A DNA stretch of 64,000 nt from Planctomycetaceae bacterium (GTDB lineage Bacteria > Planctomycetota > Planctomycetia > Pirellulales > Pirellulaceae), in NCBI GenBank assembly GCA_012729315.1, contig JAAYDI010000065.1, positions 62,001-126,000 on the forward strand. The letters are read 5' to 3'. The translations under genes and the position numbers were made by a program. A model generated the notes under the pieces. That model was not told where the DNA came from and searched no databases. It saw nothing but the letters and a program-made list of their open reading frames with translations. Positions 1,431 to 40,039 of this stretch are shown here, piece after piece. Each line of letters begins with the position of its first letter. Positions within the stretch are counted from its first letter, which is position 1.

Positions 1431-2105
1431 TCACCCCAGCAACTGCAGGAAGGCGTCGGCCGGGTCCAGACTGTCCAGGACCAGATCGGGTGCCGCGGCT
1501 ACCAGCTGCTCCCGGCTGTCCCAGCCAGTCGCCACGGCCACGGCCCGTGCCCCGATCGCCCGCGCGCAACGCACGTCGATCGGCGTGTCGCCAATGACCC
1601 ACACGCGGTCGGGAGGCACCTCCTGCCCGATGTGCGTGCACGAGGCCGTCAGGGCGTCGCGGGCCACGTCGTCCCGGTTGACGAAGTGGTCGCCATAGCC
1701 GCCAAACGCGAAATAGTGCGACAAGCGATAGTGATCGAGCTTGAGCTTGGCACTGCCCCGGGAGTTGCCCGTCAACAAACCGAGCGCCACATCGTCGCGC
1801 TGGGACAACTGGTTGAGCAGCCCCGTGACGCCGGGCAGCACCATCCCCTCGCGCTGAGGCAGATAGACTGCCAGCCGCCGCAAGTACTCATCTTGCAGGC
1901 GCTGCCAGTTCGCGTCCGTGTCGTCGATATCGTGCGCTCGAAACAGGCGATGGGCAATCCACCGATCGGTGCGGCCGCTGAACGGGACCTCGCACGGTTC
2001 CGCCACCCGGAACAGGTCAGAGAACGCCGACATCAGCGCCGTCACCCCTGCCCCGCCGGTCTTGATCAGTGTGCCGTCAATGTCAAACAGTAGGACCATT
2101 TTCAT
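1431..2105 (-). CDS. HAD-superfamily phosphatase, phosphoglycolate phosphatase-like
   Basis: I start this at the ATG at 2105, giving 224 residues, because the protein then begins directly with the HAD motif I, FDIDGT (catalytic D8 and D10). Motif II lies in LLTGNSRG and the motif IV acid in VIGDTPIDV, with the usual GARAVAVATGW strand after it. The alpha-helical cap between motifs I and II is of the phosphoglycolate phosphatase type. It should hydrolyse a small phosphorylated metabolite; the substrate cannot be told from sequence. Its stop abuts that of the thioredoxin-TPR gene on the other strand. Confidence 0.8.
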   Translation of the reverse strand: MKMVLLFDIDGTLIKTGGAGVTALMSAFSDLFRVAEPCEVPFSGRTDRWIAHRLFRAHDIDDTDANWQRLQDEYLRRLAVYLPQREGMVLPGVTGLLNQLSQRDDVALGLLTGNSRGSAKLKLDHYRLSHYFAFGGYGDHFVNRDDVARDALTASCTHIGQEVPPDRVWVIGDTPIDVRCARAIGARAVAVATGWDSREQLVAAAPDLVLDSLDPADAFLQLLG

Positions 2106-2142
2106 ACGGCACATGGTAGTCGAGCAGGTGCGGGAGCGGAAC

Positions 2143-2171
2143 TTGGCGACGGCCGGCCCCACGGATACACT
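2143..2171 (+). promoter_or_regulatory. Putative promoter of the feo unit
   Basis: TTGGCG at 2143-2148 and TACACT at 2166-2171 are separated by 17 bp, a 4/6 plus 4/6 match to a sigma-70-type promoter. Transcription from about 2178 would give a 110-nt leader before the GTG at 2291. No Fur or DtxR palindrome is obvious nearby. Confidence 0.35.
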
Positions 2172-2290
2172 AACAGCGGATTTTTCGAGTCGTCCAAAAG
2201 GTGTGGCGGTTTTCGCCGGAAGCCGTGCTGCGGTGAGGACTTCCGGTGCACAGCCAGGCCAGATGCCGGAGGTCTGGAGGGGGGCTTCCC

Positions 2291-3301
2291 GTGGAACCAG
2301 TGGTCAACCTGGTGGTGGGCGCGGTTGTGCTCGGCCTGCTCTACCTGCTGTTTCGTGCCGGTAGCGGCTGGTTCTGGCGGTGGTTCGACAGGCCGGTGGA
2401 TGGGCAGCGTGTGCGGGTGGAGGATGCGCTGAAGCATCTGTACAACACCAGTGAAGCTGGTCTGCCGGGGACGATCGAGAGCATTGCCGGGGCGCTGCAG
2501 ATCACGTGCGACGCAGCGGCCCGGCTGGCCCAGCAGCTCGAGCACCGCGCGCTGGTGTCATCGCGGGGGCTGGTCTTCGAGTTGACGGAAGAAGGGCGCC
2601 TCTATGCGCTGCAGGTCATCCGGACCCACCGGCTCTGGGAGCACTACCTGGCACACGAGACCGGGTTGGCCGAGCAGGAGTGGCATGCGCGTGCGGATCG
2701 CGTGGAGCATCAGCTGACGCCGGCCGAGGTGGATGCGCTGGCGGCGCGCCTGGGGCACCCGCTGTTCGATCCGCACGGCGATCCGATCCCCACAGCGACC
2801 GGAACCGTGTGCGCGCTGGAGGGGCAGCCTCTGACGGCGGCGCATGCCGGCCAGTGCGTGCGGGTGGTGCATCTGGAAGATGAGCCGGCGTCGACGTATG
2901 GGGAGTTGCTGGCGGCGCATCTGGAGCCCGGCATGACACTGCAGGTGTCGGCGGCCGATGCCAGCGGGATCGCGCTGGATACCGGTGGGGGCACCTGTCA
3001 GTTGTCGCCGACCGCGGCCGCCAGTGTCACGGTGCAGCCGCTGCCGGAGGGGGCGTCGCCCCAGCTCCCGACGCGTCGCATGTCGGCGCTGGCGGCCGGG
3101 GAACAGGCCGTCGTGGCCAGTATTTCGCCGGCCTGCCGGGGCGTGGAGCGGCGCCGTCTGCTGGACCTGGGACTGGTGCCCGGGACCCGTGTACGGGCCG
3201 AGTTCAAGAGTCCGGCCGGGGACCCGGTGGCGTACCGGGTGCGGGGAGCCTTGATCGCGCTGCGCAGCCAGCAGGCGGACATGATCTGCGTGGAATCTTG
3301 A
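2291..3301 (+). CDS. Membrane-anchored DtxR/MntR-like regulator fused to FeoA domains
   Basis: The GTG at 2291 follows a purine-rich GGAGGGGG and gives 336 residues. Order: a hydrophobic segment at 5-22 likely to be a membrane anchor; a winged helix (about 43-100) of the iron-dependent repressor family; its dimerisation and metal domain (about 108-167, with H113, H132, E139, H140 and the family signature DPHGDPIP); an SH3-like FeoA-type domain; and a clear C-terminal FeoA domain (about 262-336, with RRLLDLGLVPG). DtxR proteins are normally soluble repressors and FeoA is normally separate and assists FeoB. Position 30 bp before feoB supports a role in ferrous iron uptake or its control. The DtxR C102 equivalent appears to be D136. 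Whether it still binds DNA is unknown. Confidence 0.85.
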   Translation: MEPVVNLVVGAVVLGLLYLLFRAGSGWFWRWFDRPVDGQRVRVEDALKHLYNTSEAGLPGTIESIAGALQITCDAAARLAQQLEHRALVSSRGLVFELTEEGRLYALQVIRTHRLWEHYLAHETGLAEQEWHARADRVEHQLTPAEVDALAARLGHPLFDPHGDPIPTATGTVCALEGQPLTAAHAGQCVRVVHLEDEPASTYGELLAAHLEPGMTLQVSAADASGIALDTGGGTCQLSPTAAASVTVQPLPEGASPQLPTRRMSALAAGEQAVVASISPACRGVERRRLLDLGLVPGTRVRAEFKSPAGDPVAYRVRGALIALRSQQADMICVES

Positions 3302-16204: not shown

Positions 16205-17353
16205 TCAGAAACCTCTCCACAGCCACCAGTCCTCGCCGCCGCACAGCGTGGCGCAGGGGATGGGGATGGCTGCTGGGATGGCCGCGGCCGGCTGTGGGAT
16301 CGTGTCCGGTGCTGTTGCCGGACGGTCGTGGACCACGAGCCAGACGTTGCGGAACTGTACCGGATTGCCGTGGTCCTGCAGCAGGATCGGCCCGTCGTAC
16401 GCCGTCTCCGGTTGACCGGCGCCTGTCTTGCTGAAGATGGTGCGCTGGCTGTGAATGGGCACGCCGTTATGCAGCACGGTAATGGACGCATCGGTCGTCT
16501 TGTTGCCTTCGGGATCCCACCTGGCGGCCGTGAAGTCGATGTCGTAGGTCTGCCACGCCAGCGGCGGGAAACTCATATTCAGATCGGGTCCCTGCTGGCG
16601 GTACAGTGCGCCGCAGTCGTTGAACTGGGGCAGCAGGCCAAAGGAGTCGAGGATCTGCACCTCGTAACGGCGCTGGATATAGACCCCGCTGTTGCCGCGT
16701 CCCTGTTCGCGCGCGTGTGGCATGTAGGGGGTCTGAAACTCCAGGTGCATGTGGAAATCGCGCACCGGCATTCTGGTCACCGCGCCGGGTGCGAGCCAGC
16801 CGGCCGGCGTCAGGCGGCCCGATTCGAACCGAGTGACGCTCGAGCCGTCGAACAGCACGATGGCTCCTGGCGGCGGCGCGGCTCCAAGCGTAATGCTCGT
16901 GCGCCGTACCTGCTGCACCTGCCCCACTTCCCGCCCCCTGGCATCGATCACCCGCCCCCGCCCGTTCTGCATGATCACCGTGCCCCGCTCGCCGGTCAAC
17001 GTCAGCTGCTCCCCGTGCCGTACGCCGTTCCAGGAAATGAAGTTCTCCTGGTCCCACCCGTTGCCCGGCAGACCGCCCGGCAGGCCCAACGCGGAGAACT
17101 GACCCTGCCCCAGCGCGACGATCTGTAGCCCAAACGAGACGCGCCGGCCGTCCACTGCCCGCACGTCCCCAAAGTACTCGCCCTGGAACGCGAAATCCTC
17201 GTCCACCTCGGCCAGCGTCGTGGCCACCAGATCGGGCTGTGGATCGTCCGCCTCGGCCGAGGCAGACAAGACGTGCAGTGCGGCCAGAACGGCCACGGTC
17301 GGACACAGGAGACAGGAACACAGGAGCTGGGGACGCAGGAGCTGGGGACACAT
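16205..17353 (-). CDS. Secreted DUF1080 (3-keto-disaccharide hydrolase-like) protein
   Basis: Starting at 17353 gives 382 residues with an N-terminal hydrophobic signal ending near LSASAEA. The C-terminal half is a DUF1080 jelly roll: IVLFDGSSVTRFESG, then DFHMHLEFQTPY, GRGNSGVYIQRRYEVQILDS, GALYRQQ and ILLQDHGNPVQFRNVW. DUF1080 domains bind or cleave carbohydrates, with some acting on 3-ketosugars made by Gfo/Idh enzymes, and are heavily expanded in planctomycetes. The first residues (CPQLLRPQLLCSCLLC) are encoded by a 15-bp tandem repeat, so the exact start is uncertain. A glycosidase-like gene lies directly upstream on the same strand. Confidence 0.88.
   Translation of the reverse strand: MCPQLLRPQLLCSCLLCPTVAVLAALHVLSASAEADDPQPDLVATTLAEVDEDFAFQGEYFGDVRAVDGRRVSFGLQIVALGQGQFSALGLPGGLPGNGWDQENFISWNGVRHGEQLTLTGERGTVIMQNGRGRVIDARGREVGQVQQVRRTSITLGAAPPPGAIVLFDGSSVTRFESGRLTPAGWLAPGAVTRMPVRDFHMHLEFQTPYMPHAREQGRGNSGVYIQRRYEVQILDSFGLLPQFNDCGALYRQQGPDLNMSFPPLAWQTYDIDFTAARWDPEGNKTTDASITVLHNGVPIHSQRTIFSKTGAGQPETAYDGPILLQDHGNPVQFRNVWLVVHDRPATAPDTIPQPAAAIPAAIPIPCATLCGGEDWWLWRGF
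17317..17346. repeat. 15-bp tandem repeat over the DUF1080 gene start
   Basis: AGGAGCTGGGGAC(G/A)C is present twice in a row just inside the 5' end of the DUF1080 gene, with a related degenerate AGGAGACAGGAACAC before it. It encodes the repeated PQLL of the signal peptide. Confidence 0.7.
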
Positions 17354-33123: not shown

Positions 33124-33148
33124 CGAATTCCTGAATTCCTGAATTCCT
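33124..33148. repeat. Octamer GAATTCCT, three tandem copies
   Basis: GAATTCCT runs 33125-33148 in three perfect copies, leading straight into the dispersed 38-bp repeat. Confidence 0.9.
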
Positions 33149-33180
33149 GAATTTCCCTGATCGCTCTCTCGAGAAAGTGC
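33143..33180 (+). repeat. Dispersed 38-bp element, copy A
   Basis: ATTCCTGAATTTCCCTG followed by ATCGCTCTCTCGAGAAAGTGC. The same 38 bp with two changes is found at 38592-38629. Both copies lie 43-48 bp upstream of a -35 box and in the same orientation to the gene. Confidence 0.85.
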
Positions 33181-33227
33181 GTTCCTGCATCTGTCAGGTG
33201 TTCAGGTGTGGGCAGGCCAAATCCGTC

Positions 33228-33256
33228 TTGTCTCTCCTAGGGTTCACTGCTATCCT
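33228..33256 (+). promoter_or_regulatory. Promoter of the small lipoprotein gene
   Basis: TTGTCT (33228-33233) and TATCCT (33251-33256) with a 17-bp spacer; transcription from about 33263, some 60 nt before the ATG at 33322. The repeat element copy A ends 47 bp upstream. Confidence 0.5.
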
Positions 33257-33321: not shown

Positions 33322-33981
33322 ATGCGCTACGCCACCACACGCCACACGTTGGGAATCCTGCTGATCCTCTGCCTGCCTGCCCTGGTCTGTTCGACGGGCT
33401 GTGCCGTGCTGTATCAGCTGGCCTATGGGGACGGTCACAAGATCGAGGCCAAATACACCGGCCTGAAAGGGAAGCGGGTGGCGGTCGTCTGCGTGATGAA
33501 CCCGTCGACCTATGGAGATGGTGAGGCGTCGACGATGCTGGCGGATGAGGTGGGGCGGATCCTGCGGCAGAAGATCGACAAGATTCAGGTCGTGCGTCAG
33601 GACGAAGTGGCGGACTGGATGGACACGAACGAGTGGGACGAATCTGATTTTGTCGAGATCGGGCGCGGCGTGAAGGCGGACGTGGTGGTGGGGATCGACA
33701 TCGACGCGTTCAGCATTCACGAGAGCAAGACGTTGTTGAAGGGGCGTTCGCGGCTGTCGACGACCGTCTACGACATGGCGCGCGACGGCGAAGAGGTTTT
33801 CCGTACAACCGACGCCGAGCACACGTTCCCGACAACCCACGCCGTATCGGTGCTCAATGCCAACTGGCGGACGTTTGAACGCACCTACATTCAGGTGCTG
33901 GCGGAGCACATCGCGAAGAACTTCTACGACTACAACATGGCCGAAGACTTCGCCCGCGACGGGGCCGCCTACGCCCACTGA
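33322..33981 (+). CDS. Small envelope lipoprotein, unknown function
   Basis: GGAG at 33311-33314 supports the ATG at 33322 and a 219-residue product. The signal ends in LVCSTGC, a lipobox-like site, so it is likely a lipoprotein. The mature part (GLKGKRVAVVCVMNPSTYGD, VVGIDIDAFSIHESKTLLKG) looks like a single alpha/beta domain resembling the GNA1162/LpoB-type folds that start with a strand, helix and long loop; that is an impression only. I cannot name it. It converges on ymdB with 12 bp between the stops. Confidence 0.82.
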   Translation: MRYATTRHTLGILLILCLPALVCSTGCAVLYQLAYGDGHKIEAKYTGLKGKRVAVVCVMNPSTYGDGEASTMLADEVGRILRQKIDKIQVVRQDEVADWMDTNEWDESDFVEIGRGVKADVVVGIDIDAFSIHESKTLLKGRSRLSTTVYDMARDGEEVFRTTDAEHTFPTTHAVSVLNANWRTFERTYIQVLAEHIAKNFYDYNMAEDFARDGAAYAH

Positions 33982-37366: not shown

Positions 37367-38434
37367 ATGAACACATCCCCCCTGACTCAGCCGCAGCGCT
37401 CGTCTACATTGCCGACTATGGCGTCGGGGCACCCCTTTGAGCGGCGGATCGCCGCAGCCTGGCCTGTCAGCCAATGGCAGGATGTGACCGTGCTCGTGGC
37501 CGTCTCCGGCGGCCGCGACAGTGTGGCACTGTTGCGCGCTCTGGCACGCGTGCGGGACCCCTCCGCGGGGTCGCTGGTGGTGGCCCATTTCAACCACGGC
37601 TGGCGTGGCGCAGAGTCCGACGGTGACGAAGTGTTCGTGCAGCGTCTGAGCGATGCGCTGCAGTTGCCGTGCGAAGTGGGTCGTGCTCCGACAGGTCTGG
37701 CAGCCGTTCACACGGGACTGGAAGTTACTGCGCGGCAGCTGCGGTACCAGTTCCTGCGGGCGACCGCCGATCGCCTGGGGGCGCGGTATGTCGCGACCGC
37801 GCACACGGCCGATGACCAGGTCGAAACGATCCTCCACCGCATCGTCCGTGGAACCGGCTTGCGGGGGCTCGCCGGCATCCCGCGCATCCGCCCATTGAGC
37901 CCCCTGACGACCCTGGTCCGGCCGATGCTGCATATCCATCGTCCGGAGCTGCAGGCGTATCTGGACGATCTGCAGCAGGTGTTTCGCGAAGACTCGTCCA
38001 ACGCCGCCACACACCATACCCGCAACCGCATCCGGCATCAGTTGCTGCCAACGCTCCGACGCGACTACAACCCGTGCGTGGAACAGGCGGTGCAGCGGCT
38101 GGGCGAGCTGGCGCATCAGGCTCAGCTGACAGTCGATGCGCTGGCCGATACGCTCCGCACGCAGTGCGTCAGCTATCCGCAGGCAAACCGTGTGCGGATC
38201 GACTGCGTTCCGCTGCGCAATCAATCACCCTATCTGGTCCGCGAGCTGTTGCACGCCGTGTGGTGCCAACTCCATTGGCCGAGACAGGACATGAGTGAGC
38301 GGAAGTGGCGCGAGTTATGCCGCCTGGTGCAACACCCCGACTCGACGCTGCGAAGATTCACCCTGCCGGGCAGGATCGAGGTCCACGCGTCGGGTGACGT
38401 GGTCGAGTGCGCGCGTCACGCGCCAGACGGGTAG
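37367..38434 (+). CDS. tilS: tRNA(Ile)-lysidine synthetase
   Basis: The 355-residue product carries the PP-loop VAVSGGRDSVAL (SGGRDS at 47-52 from the ATG at 37367), then HFNHGWRGAESDGDE, TAHTADDQVETILHRIVRGT, GLAGIPRIRP and a NRIRHQLLP segment. TilS adds lysine to C34 of tRNA-Ile(CAU) so it reads AUA. An ATG at 37418 (MASGHPFERR) is equally plausible because neither has a clear Shine-Dalgarno. The protein is shorter than E. coli TilS, lacking most of the C-terminal domains, which is common in other phyla. Confidence 0.92.
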   Translation: MNTSPLTQPQRSSTLPTMASGHPFERRIAAAWPVSQWQDVTVLVAVSGGRDSVALLRALARVRDPSAGSLVVAHFNHGWRGAESDGDEVFVQRLSDALQLPCEVGRAPTGLAAVHTGLEVTARQLRYQFLRATADRLGARYVATAHTADDQVETILHRIVRGTGLRGLAGIPRIRPLSPLTTLVRPMLHIHRPELQAYLDDLQQVFREDSSNAATHHTRNRIRHQLLPTLRRDYNPCVEQAVQRLGELAHQAQLTVDALADTLRTQCVSYPQANRVRIDCVPLRNQSPYLVRELLHAVWCQLHWPRQDMSERKWRELCRLVQHPDSTLRRFTLPGRIEVHASGDVVECARHAPDG

Positions 38435-38548
38435 CGACGGACCCGTTCTGTTCCGTGTGGCACTTGTTGGCCGTGCGACGTGGCACTCGTCCGGTCTGTT
38501 CCGGTTCCGGGCGGGCGCAGCTGTTGGGCTCGCCGGTCCGCTCTTTCT

Positions 38549-38572
38549 GCACGGCTAACAAGTAAGCCGTGC
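38549..38572 (+). terminator. Hairpin after tilS
   Basis: GCACGGCT (38549-38556) pairs with AGCCGTGC (38565-38572) over an 8-nt loop, AACAAGTA. No T tract follows. It lies 115 bp after the tilS stop. The rest of the 312-bp spacer is the 38-bp repeat copy B and a promoter; no gene. Confidence 0.4.
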
Positions 38573-38591
38573 TACACGGTCGCATTCCCGC

Positions 38592-38629
38592 ATTCCTGAA
38601 TTTCCCTGGTCGCTCTCCCGAGAAAGTGC
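38592..38629 (+). repeat. Dispersed 38-bp element, copy B
   Basis: ATTCCTGAATTTCCCTG followed by GTCGCTCTCCCGAGAAAGTGC, matching copy A (33143-33180) except at two bases. It ends 43 bp before the next promoter. Confidence 0.85.
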
Positions 38630-38672
38630 ATTCGTGTACGTGCGCCCGTGCGCCTGCTAGCACAAATCAGTG

Positions 38673-38702
38673 TTGACGCCTGCCGTGCGCTCCGCCTACC
38701 AT
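38673..38702 (+). promoter_or_regulatory. Promoter of the GT39-like gene
   Basis: TTGACG (38673-38678) and TACCAT (38697-38702) with an 18-bp spacer; transcription from about 38708, some 38 nt before the ATG at 38747. Confidence 0.5.
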
Positions 38703-38746: not shown

Positions 38747-40039
38747 ATGTCGGGCTCCACACGCCGCTGGATCGCGTTCACCATTCTGATGGTCGCGCTG
38801 GCCCTCCGGGGGCTCGGGGCGACGTGGTGGCAGCAGCATCTCGGGGGCGCCCGGGTGTTTGGGTTTCCGGACAGTCACAGCTACTGGGACTTGGGCCAGC
38901 GGATCGCCGCTGGCGCCGCGTACGAGTACGGCGGTCCGGACTTTCGCATCTTTCGCGCGCCGGGCTACCCGCTGTTATTAGGCGGCCTGTTCGCCCTGGT
39001 GGGGGACGATCCGCCGGTGTTATGGGCGCGGCTGGTGGGTGCGGTGTTGGGGACCTTGACGGTTCTCGGTGTGATCTGGCTGGGGAGCACGGTGTTTGAC
39101 CGCGACACGGGCCTGGTGGCGGGCGGTCTGGCGGCCGTCTATCCGGGTGCCGTGGGGCTGAGCATTTTCGTGTTGGCCGAGGCGTTATTCTGTCCCTTGC
39201 TGCTGGTGCAGTTAGCCAGCTGGGTGGCGGCGTGGCGCGCGGCGGGTCGCGGCGCTGAAACGGGCTGGGCGGTACTTGCCGGGGGCGCGGCCGGGCTGGC
39301 CGTGTTGACGCGTCCGAGCTGGTGGTTGTTCGCGCCCTTCGTGCTGGGATGTCTGGTGGTGGGAAGCCGCGACCGCTGGCGTCATCTGCGGATTGGTGGC
39401 TGGATGATCGTGGCGTGCAGCGTGGTGATGAGTCCCTGGTGGGTGCGGAATTACCAGGTGGCCGGCCGCTTCGTGCCGACGACGCTGCAGGTGGGAGCGA
39501 GTTTATACGACGGTTTGAATCCAGAGGCGACCGGCGCGAGCAACATGCCGTTTGCCGGGCCGTTCTTCCGGGCACAGAAAGAGGAGGACGCGGCGGCTGG
39601 CCGATCGCAGGATGGATTCGAGACGCGGCTGGATCGGCGGTTGCGGGACGCGGCTCTGGCGTGGGCACAGACGCATCCGGGGCAGGTGTGTCGGCTCGCC
39701 GGGCACAAGCTGCTGCGGATGTGGAACATCTGGCCGAACGCGGCCGATTTCGGCAGCTGGCCGATGAAGCTGCTGGTGGCCACCGGCTATGTGCCTGTCC
39801 TGCTGCTGGGCGCTGTGGGGTTCTGGATCTGGGGTCGGCGCGGCTGGCCGTACACGGTCTGTCTGTTCCCGGCCGTGTACTTGACCTGTTTGCACCTGGT
39901 GTTTGTCAGTTCGATTCGATACCGCGAGCCGGCGATGCTGGCGTGGATCGTGATGGCCGCCGCCGTGATCGTCCGTGTGGGGACATCCGCCGCGGCGCGC
40001 CGGACGGTGTCTGCTGATCCAGCCGGCGGACCGGCGTAG
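38747..40039 (+). CDS. Membrane glycosyltransferase, GT39/ArnT-like
   Basis: The 430-residue protein has about nine to eleven transmembrane helices. Early in the first extracytoplasmic loop it has GFPDSHSYWDLG, in which the Asp is where GT-C family enzymes keep a catalytic acid, and RAPGYPLLLGG, a segment shared with dolichyl-phosphate-mannose mannosyltransferase-like proteins. Such enzymes transfer a sugar from a polyprenyl-phosphate carrier to lipid or protein outside the inner membrane. The acceptor is unknown. It is followed 41 bp later by the AsmA-like gene, so the two may be one envelope unit. Confidence 0.8.
   Translation: MSGSTRRWIAFTILMVALALRGLGATWWQQHLGGARVFGFPDSHSYWDLGQRIAAGAAYEYGGPDFRIFRAPGYPLLLGGLFALVGDDPPVLWARLVGAVLGTLTVLGVIWLGSTVFDRDTGLVAGGLAAVYPGAVGLSIFVLAEALFCPLLLVQLASWVAAWRAAGRGAETGWAVLAGGAAGLAVLTRPSWWLFAPFVLGCLVVGSRDRWRHLRIGGWMIVACSVVMSPWWVRNYQVAGRFVPTTLQVGASLYDGLNPEATGASNMPFAGPFFRAQKEEDAAAGRSQDGFETRLDRRLRDAALAWAQTHPGQVCRLAGHKLLRMWNIWPNAADFGSWPMKLLVATGYVPVLLLGAVGFWIWGRRGWPYTVCLFPAVYLTCLHLVFVSSIRYREPAMLAWIVMAAAVIVRVGTSAAARRTVSADPAGGPA

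Follow-up and report, generated by a model that had tools for sequence, protein, structure and literature searches.

Two copies of a 38-bp sequence, each at nearly the same distance upstream of a predicted promoter, lie in a stretch of 64,000 nucleotides from a Pirellulaceae draft genome (the window), which raises the question of what places such a sequence in front of promoters. The initial annotation offered two answers, a shared operator or UP element, or the insertion of a small dispersed repeat at positions of this kind, and we have followed the sequence through the host genome and related genomes.

Two copies in the window

Both copies are real: re-reading of the coordinates placed them at 33,143–33,180 and 38,592–38,629, in the same orientation and with two differing positions. 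With up to three mismatches allowed, the window has two occurrences of the first 17 bp, compared with 0.02 expected from shuffled sequences, and a chance origin of the pair is excluded. While positions and orientation in the initial annotation stood, the end of the unit at 38 bp did not, nor did its status as a two-copy sequence, as the conserved unit extends to a sharp right edge (33,192 in copy 1, 38,641 in copy 2) and the genome holds at least 44 copies. To the left of the conserved unit, both copies have 8-bp AATTCCTG units, to which copy 2 adds more repeat modules.

All features of the two copies are on the forward strand. Copy 1 starts with a tandem (AATTCCTG)n stretch left of the conserved core (33,126–33,157, from the sequence; module match 33,126–33,153), followed by the region of the right inverted repeat (IRR), CCCTGATCGCTCTCTCGAGAAAGTGCGTTCCTGCATCT (33,155–33,192), which was defined by a genome search with model R1 and by column conservation with its sharp right edge, and of which the left limit, 33,155, was chosen by us. 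This region contains 26 of the 38 bp first noted, with the remaining 12 belonging to the tandem stretch; a left inverted repeat was not found for copy 1. Downstream are the predicted promoter TTGTCT (33,228–33,233) - 17 bp - TATCCT (33,251–33,256), found by promoter scan and matched by a similar block in the congener locus L081, and a putative lipoprotein gene (33,322–33,981, alternative start 33,280), which was assigned by eye and has no Pfam match. Copy 2 consists of the internal modules M1a and M1b (the GCACGGCTAACAAGTAAGCCGTGC hairpin region, 38,462–38,578, from the module search) and the IRR region CCCTGGTCGCTCTCCCGAGAAAGTGCATTCGTGTACGT (38,604–38,641, from the genome search), and precedes the predicted promoter TTGACG (38,673–38,678) - 18 bp - TACCAT (38,697–38,702), found by promoter scan and also present in L081 and L093, and a gene for a GT39-like PMT_2 glycosyltransferase (38,747–40,039, PF13231 by Pfam). 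Both downstream genes have the look of envelope genes, which is not repeated at other copies. A structured RNA was rejected as a candidate, as the Rfam scan of the window gave two tRNAs and nothing else, and the ends of the element fold weakly (z −0.2 to −1.6).

Copies in the host genome and in relatives

A search of the host's own 5.47-Mb, 213-contig draft genome with model R1 (57 columns, built from ten copies) listed 59 matches, 44 of them at E<1e-5; as 150 of the 4,234 first-look candidates were scored, the true number of copies is at least 44. The assembly is incomplete, with many contig ends inside repeats, and nine of the 44 copies are within about 430 bp of a contig end. A search for the element in relatives had been suggested as a check, and it was negative: in 39 other genomes (one of the genus, the rest of the family and order) the model gave nothing at E≤0.01. 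The nearest named relatives of the host are Pirellulaceae MAGs, and the core was not found in their 80 rny loci. An exact 20-mer of the element was absent from viral contigs, the element was not found in plasmids, and no account of it was recognised in those parts of the open-access literature that were available.

Several of the modules left of the core are also present without the core. The M1b module has 46 matches in the host genome at E≤0.01, and the M1 hairpin pattern was seen in just 3 of 59 other genomes, with one or two matches apiece. A composite element with congruent module histories was rejected on Mantel tests between modules, which gave no correlation with the few copies available.

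A separate high-copy repeat of ~480 bp, with ends GGTGAAAGGC(C/T)CGG.../...CGGGCCTTTCACC, was found on many contigs of the host genome (G000; for example L042, L049 and L073) and not in the window. For the 132 bp at its end, scoring of 40 among 112 candidates gave at least 40 copies with 96-100% identity, which are often at contig ends, and therefore the 480-bp repeat probably breaks the assembly.

Ends of the element and target duplications

When right-aligned, the 44 copies are conserved through GTTCCTGCACCT, the end of the IRR, where conservation stops abruptly: columns in the core mostly hold 1.3-1.8 bits, and the three columns past the last T hold 0.43, 0.29 and 0.10 bits. Leftward of the core there are a variable number of 8-bp AATTCCTG units, and then modules in a consistent order. 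A left-end sequence, which shares only its outer CGTTCCTGCACC with the IRR, has nine occurrences in the sequence examined. Its reading as a separate variant of the core ('type 2') was dropped, as in two loci (contigs C96 and C172) it is placed inverted at the left of an intact copy and is therefore the left inverted repeat (IRL). The sequence first noted thus belongs to the right end of the element, a small transposon whose two ends are unequal.

The copy in C96 is 301 bp long with perfect 9-bp direct repeats outside its ends (CCCCCGCTG), and the copy in C172 is 381 bp long, also with perfect 9-bp direct repeats (CGTCCGCAG); the intact element is about 300-380 bp. The unequal inverted repeats have their outer 12 bp in common (GGTGCAGGAACG; 11 bp in the C172 copy). 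If the duplication is taken as 9 bp, the IRR ends in T in 36/44 copies, and the IRL has G or C at its outermost position. The duplications are perfect in 2/2 copies keeping both ends, and it is on these two copies that the case for them and for the left end rests. A search of 800 bp beside each of the other 42 copies recognised no left end with the expected orientation; in contig C174 the left-end sequence is present but oppositely oriented.

Gene context and orientation

Genes were called by script, with predicted starts. None of the 44 copies is inside a gene, all being intergenic, and where a right-hand protein gene was called (40 copies, 5 to 1,322 bp from the element), it points away from the element in 39; in the sole exception (L047) the element faces the 3' end of a gene. 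Four copies have no called protein gene at the right, one of which faces tRNA-Glu. The left gene is random with respect to strand (17 same, 18 opposite, 9 not called), and in co-directional gene pairs 15/15 copies share one orientation (p=6e-5). As a control, four ends of other repeats (two of the 480-bp repeat, M2 left and M4 left) face 45 gene 5' ends vs 34 3' ends, compared with 30 to 1 for the core (p=2e-5). This control omitted the right ends of M1b (17 to 4) and M2 (2 to 0), because many of these sit in the same chains as the core, and including them gives 64 to 38.

Pfam scans covered 38 of the 40 genes called on the right, together with two second genes, and returned functionally unrelated products without a theme, with matches to aconitase, ribosomal protein L28, Mur ligase, carbamoyltransferase, a dehydrogenase E1/FabH fusion, peptidases, an MFS transporter and oxidoreductases; the RF1 region is also among the unrelated downstream loci.

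A preferred distance to the promoter

The 120 bp to the right of each edge were scanned with E. coli-type matrices, and scores of at least 8 were taken as confident; all promoters given here are predictions. A confident σ70-like promoter was present to the right of 30/44 copies, compared with 14.9% of block-shuffled flanks, 11.4% of reverse strands, and 153 of 657 windows from control gene starts (219 starts). In 16 of the 30 promoter-bearing copies the -10 box starts at +50 to +54 past the edge, with the complete set of positions being 34 (twice), 35 (twice), 38, 42, 44, 50 (twice), 51 (four times), 52 (five times), 53 (twice), 54 (three times), 56, 57, 60 (twice), 61, 65 and 71. When 30 control promoters were drawn 200 times, the best 5-bp window held 5.0 on average and never more than 8. 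The preference is not absolute: a confident promoter is lacking in 14/44 copies, and among the remaining 30 there are 14 outside the 5-bp window, including the two copies in the window, with -10 boxes at +60 (copy 1) and +57 (copy 2). Of the 30 copies with a confident promoter, 15 have a -35 box that begins at +28 to +31, counted from CACC. Among the nine left-end copies, the -10 box of the best promoter is at +51 or +52 in two (C44 and L274), and farther, weak or out of range in the others.

At precisely defined ends of other repeats, 0/22 promoters were in the +50 to +54 range vs 11/23 for the core (p=0.0002). With edges defined by BLAST, which overrun a few bases into the flank, there was little contrast (5/29 core edges vs 7/43 other edges facing gene starts, some of these 43 being left ends or truncated relatives of the same element). 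We ascribe this weak contrast to the blurring of the edges, which also affects the core's own peak; our reading depends chiefly on the peak at defined edges and on the duplications. A random placement of the copies with respect to promoters, the outcome that was to have marked the element as just a dispersed repeat, was not what the genome-wide set gave.

Core quality was not correlated with spacing (rho −0.04), and ongoing selection on core plus spacing was rejected for this reason; likewise, a promoter spacing locked to helical phase was rejected, as there was no helical periodicity outside the main peak (n=14).

Promoters of the congener, and regulatory or neutral readings

The related locus L081 belongs to a congener (genome G001), and the comparisons below rest on this one congener plus L093. 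At four loci (the two window genes, L065 and L064) the predicted promoter is conserved in the congener without the element. In the tilS-GT39 locus, both L081 and L093 carry the same TTGAC.../TACCATG promoter; the tilS stop codon overlaps the -35 box in L081, while in the window there are 206 bp from the tilS stop to the element edge. The promoter block of the lipoprotein gene is similar in L081, where the core was not found. Ten further loci were compared with G001, of which three were aligned in detail (L065, L064 and L072). The promoters TTGACA...CACAAT of L065 and TTGYTG...TGCTATACT of L064 are conserved in G001, and in L072 conservation covers the upstream block but not the predicted promoter (-10 at +38), which was not counted; the remaining seven loci gave no alignment extending back to the edge. 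Judged from these alignments, the predicted promoters near the element are native.

The tilS product encoded in the window (37,367–38,434) ends about 11 residues before its L081 counterpart, where the repeat block begins, and tilS may have been truncated at its 3' end by the insertion, although the spacer in L093 is longer. The congener has repeats of its own: upstream of the E1 dehydrogenase gene (L241, contig C70 of G001), the site orthologous to a core copy bears other tandem units of the TTCCTGTCCCCCATT type, other palindromic repeats of the GGGTGGCTGGGGACGAACGAAGTGAGCCCCCAGC type are found in its intergenic DNA (L294, L296, L311 and other sampled contigs), and a 327-kb sample of G001 contained repeat families other than the core. 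Repeat families thus seem to turn over within the genus.

A cis-regulatory site, in the form of a lineage-specific activator site or operator at about −64 to −101 from the transcription start with its distance kept by selection, is the least improbable alternative, and would account for the fixed orientation, the preferred promoter spacing and the good conservation of a core of about 37 bp. We nevertheless consider it unlikely, as the downstream genes are functionally unrelated and include tRNA-Glu, the quality of the core is independent of spacing, and the congener has conserved promoters but gave no match to the core. About 37 conserved positions would also represent far more information than 44 binding sites need, and the inverted repeats and target duplications are left unexplained. 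The shared operator or UP element first proposed found no support on the same grounds: downstream genes without a theme, congener promoters without the element, and copies at the preferred spacing that are no better conserved.

Less probable again is a neutral dispersed repeat with random insertion, where selection removes the copies that break genes or promoters. That 44/44 copies are intergenic, that many repeat families crowd the intergenic DNA of the host, and that with crude edges other kinds of repeats also end 25-60 bp from -10 boxes, is all consistent with such filtering, but it fails on the 15/15 orientation in co-directional regions and on the 5-bp peak, which is absent when other repeats of this intergenic DNA are measured from precisely defined ends. 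The other proposal of the initial annotation, a small dispersed repeat inserting at such positions, was supported by the 44 copies, their fixed orientation and preferred distance to the promoter, the inverted repeats and the 9-bp target duplications.

Search for a mobilising enzyme

No transposase was found in Pfam among 20 proteins adjoining IRR or IRL copies (12 of 44 left-gene references and 8 ORFs from L274, L288 and L289), nor among 40 downstream proteins. In L289, a gene for a SWIM zinc-finger protein (1712–3034) starts about 170 bp inside a left-end copy and runs off the examined stretch; eukaryotic Mutator transposases often have SWIM domains.

The genome search found one Y1_Tnp (RAYT-like) gene (L260, contig C70 of G000, 16,347–16,688). 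It is flanked by palindromic repeats of the M3-M5 type, which resemble the 480-bp repeat (about 69-75% identity, longer matches), and this suggests that the Y1 gene and its flanking palindromic repeats are a REP/RAYT-type pair. Small intergenic repeats are the usual partners of Y1 enzymes, from which, to our knowledge, 9-bp duplications are not expected. That the element itself is a REP/REPIN moved by this transposase, for which the gene and the partnership of Y1 enzymes with small intergenic repeats (the accessible part of PMC3733652) would speak, is highly improbable, as the repeats beside the Y1 gene are of another kind, a search of the surrounding 3.3-kb locus gave no core, the ends of the element fold weakly (the z values given above), and both copies with two ends have 9-bp duplications.

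A probable miniature transposon directed to promoters

The inverted repeats, the 9-bp duplications, the near-strict orientation and the preferred promoter distance together lead us to a MITE moved in trans by a promoter-targeting transposase. We consider it very probable that the 38-bp sequence overlaps the IRR of a non-autonomous MITE-like DNA transposon with oriented, promoter-anchored insertion, for which we infer a trans-acting transposase. The element is short (301 and 381 bp) and present in many copies (44), it has terminal inverted repeats and a 9-bp target duplication, and no long reading frame was found as a transposase inside it. In the proposed mechanism, a DDE transposase supplied in trans would recognise the two unequal ends differently and insert the element at a fixed point upstream of promoters, with targeting either by reading promoter DNA or by contact with promoter-bound RNA polymerase, and the left end would since have disappeared from most copies. 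For the downstream gene, the presence of the element probably matters little.

The edge of the element is at about −64 from the inferred transcription start, which we take to be near the upstream limit of the RNA polymerase footprint. Tentatively, and with clearly less confidence than for the transposon itself, we suggest a planctomycete miniature transposon that could be steered to promoter-bound RNA polymerase via a transposase lineage or tether other than the p-MULT 3/4 enzymes discussed below. The approximately 44 natural insertion sites can be used to ask what the transposase reads, be it promoter sequence, DNA shape or bound polymerase. The right edge of the element helps to predict where a σ70-type promoter starts in this genome, which may be of practical use; we know of few mapped promoters in the planctomycete phylum.

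Comparison with known systems

Bacterial MITEs are short, multi-copy sequences with terminal inverted repeats and a target duplication, all of which the element shares; it differs from them in being near-strictly oriented and promoter-spaced, in its internal AATTCCTG units, and in the 42/44 copies without a recognised left end. BOX elements are modular, with a variable number of internal units. Together with RUP and SPRITE of pneumococcus, they are small interspersed repeats like the one described here (PMC3049150, as far as the part available describes them). The TAACTGA repeats of Beggiatoaceae differ, being 7-bp direct repeats anchored at start codons, with the largest class ending 1 nt upstream, and the consulted sections of that report do not mention ends or duplications like those of the element (PMC4679880).

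Integration near genes that is steered by the transcription machinery is known from the yeast Ty elements (PMC5911963, in the part available), and the likeness is by analogy only, as Ty elements are eukaryotic retroelements at Pol III genes. If the polymerase-steered reading is true, the element would be a bacterial counterpart of the transcription-machinery-guided integration in yeast.

Closest in behaviour are the promoter-targeting p-MULT 3 and p-MULT 4 elements (the TnGBS, ISLre2 and ISKra4 group; Guerillot et al. 2014, PMC3942029, cited here from the portion of the text available), which exemplify the promoter-directed, oriented transposition described for some Mutator-like bacterial elements. 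According to that portion, these elements insert 15-17 bp upstream of the -35 box of σA promoters with the IRr nearest the promoter, make duplications of 8 or 9 bp, and have inverted repeats of 18-39 bp with a conserved terminal cytosine; the authors propose that unequal inverted repeats set the orientation, and Planctomycetes are one of the phyla in which p-MULT 4 is reported. Set against these pages, our element is alike in its oriented insertion, with the right inverted repeat facing a σA/σ70-type promoter (predicted here, and with a weaker contrast at crude edges), in its 9-bp direct repeats (2/2 copies with both ends, vs 8-9 bp) and in its unequal inverted repeats. It differs in that its IRR is about 26-30 bp upstream of the -35 box rather than the 15-17 bp described there, roughly one helical turn more, and in being only about 0.3-0.4 kb and found without a transposase gene. 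The two inverted repeats of the element match each other over the outer 11-12 bp only, and the last IRR base appears to be T, whereas the reported one is cytosine. Because the spacing differs, we do not claim membership; by analogy, the element appears to work like p-MULT 3/4, which would make it a tiny element without a transposase gene that shows promoter-directed behaviour at a different, peaked distance in a planctomycete.
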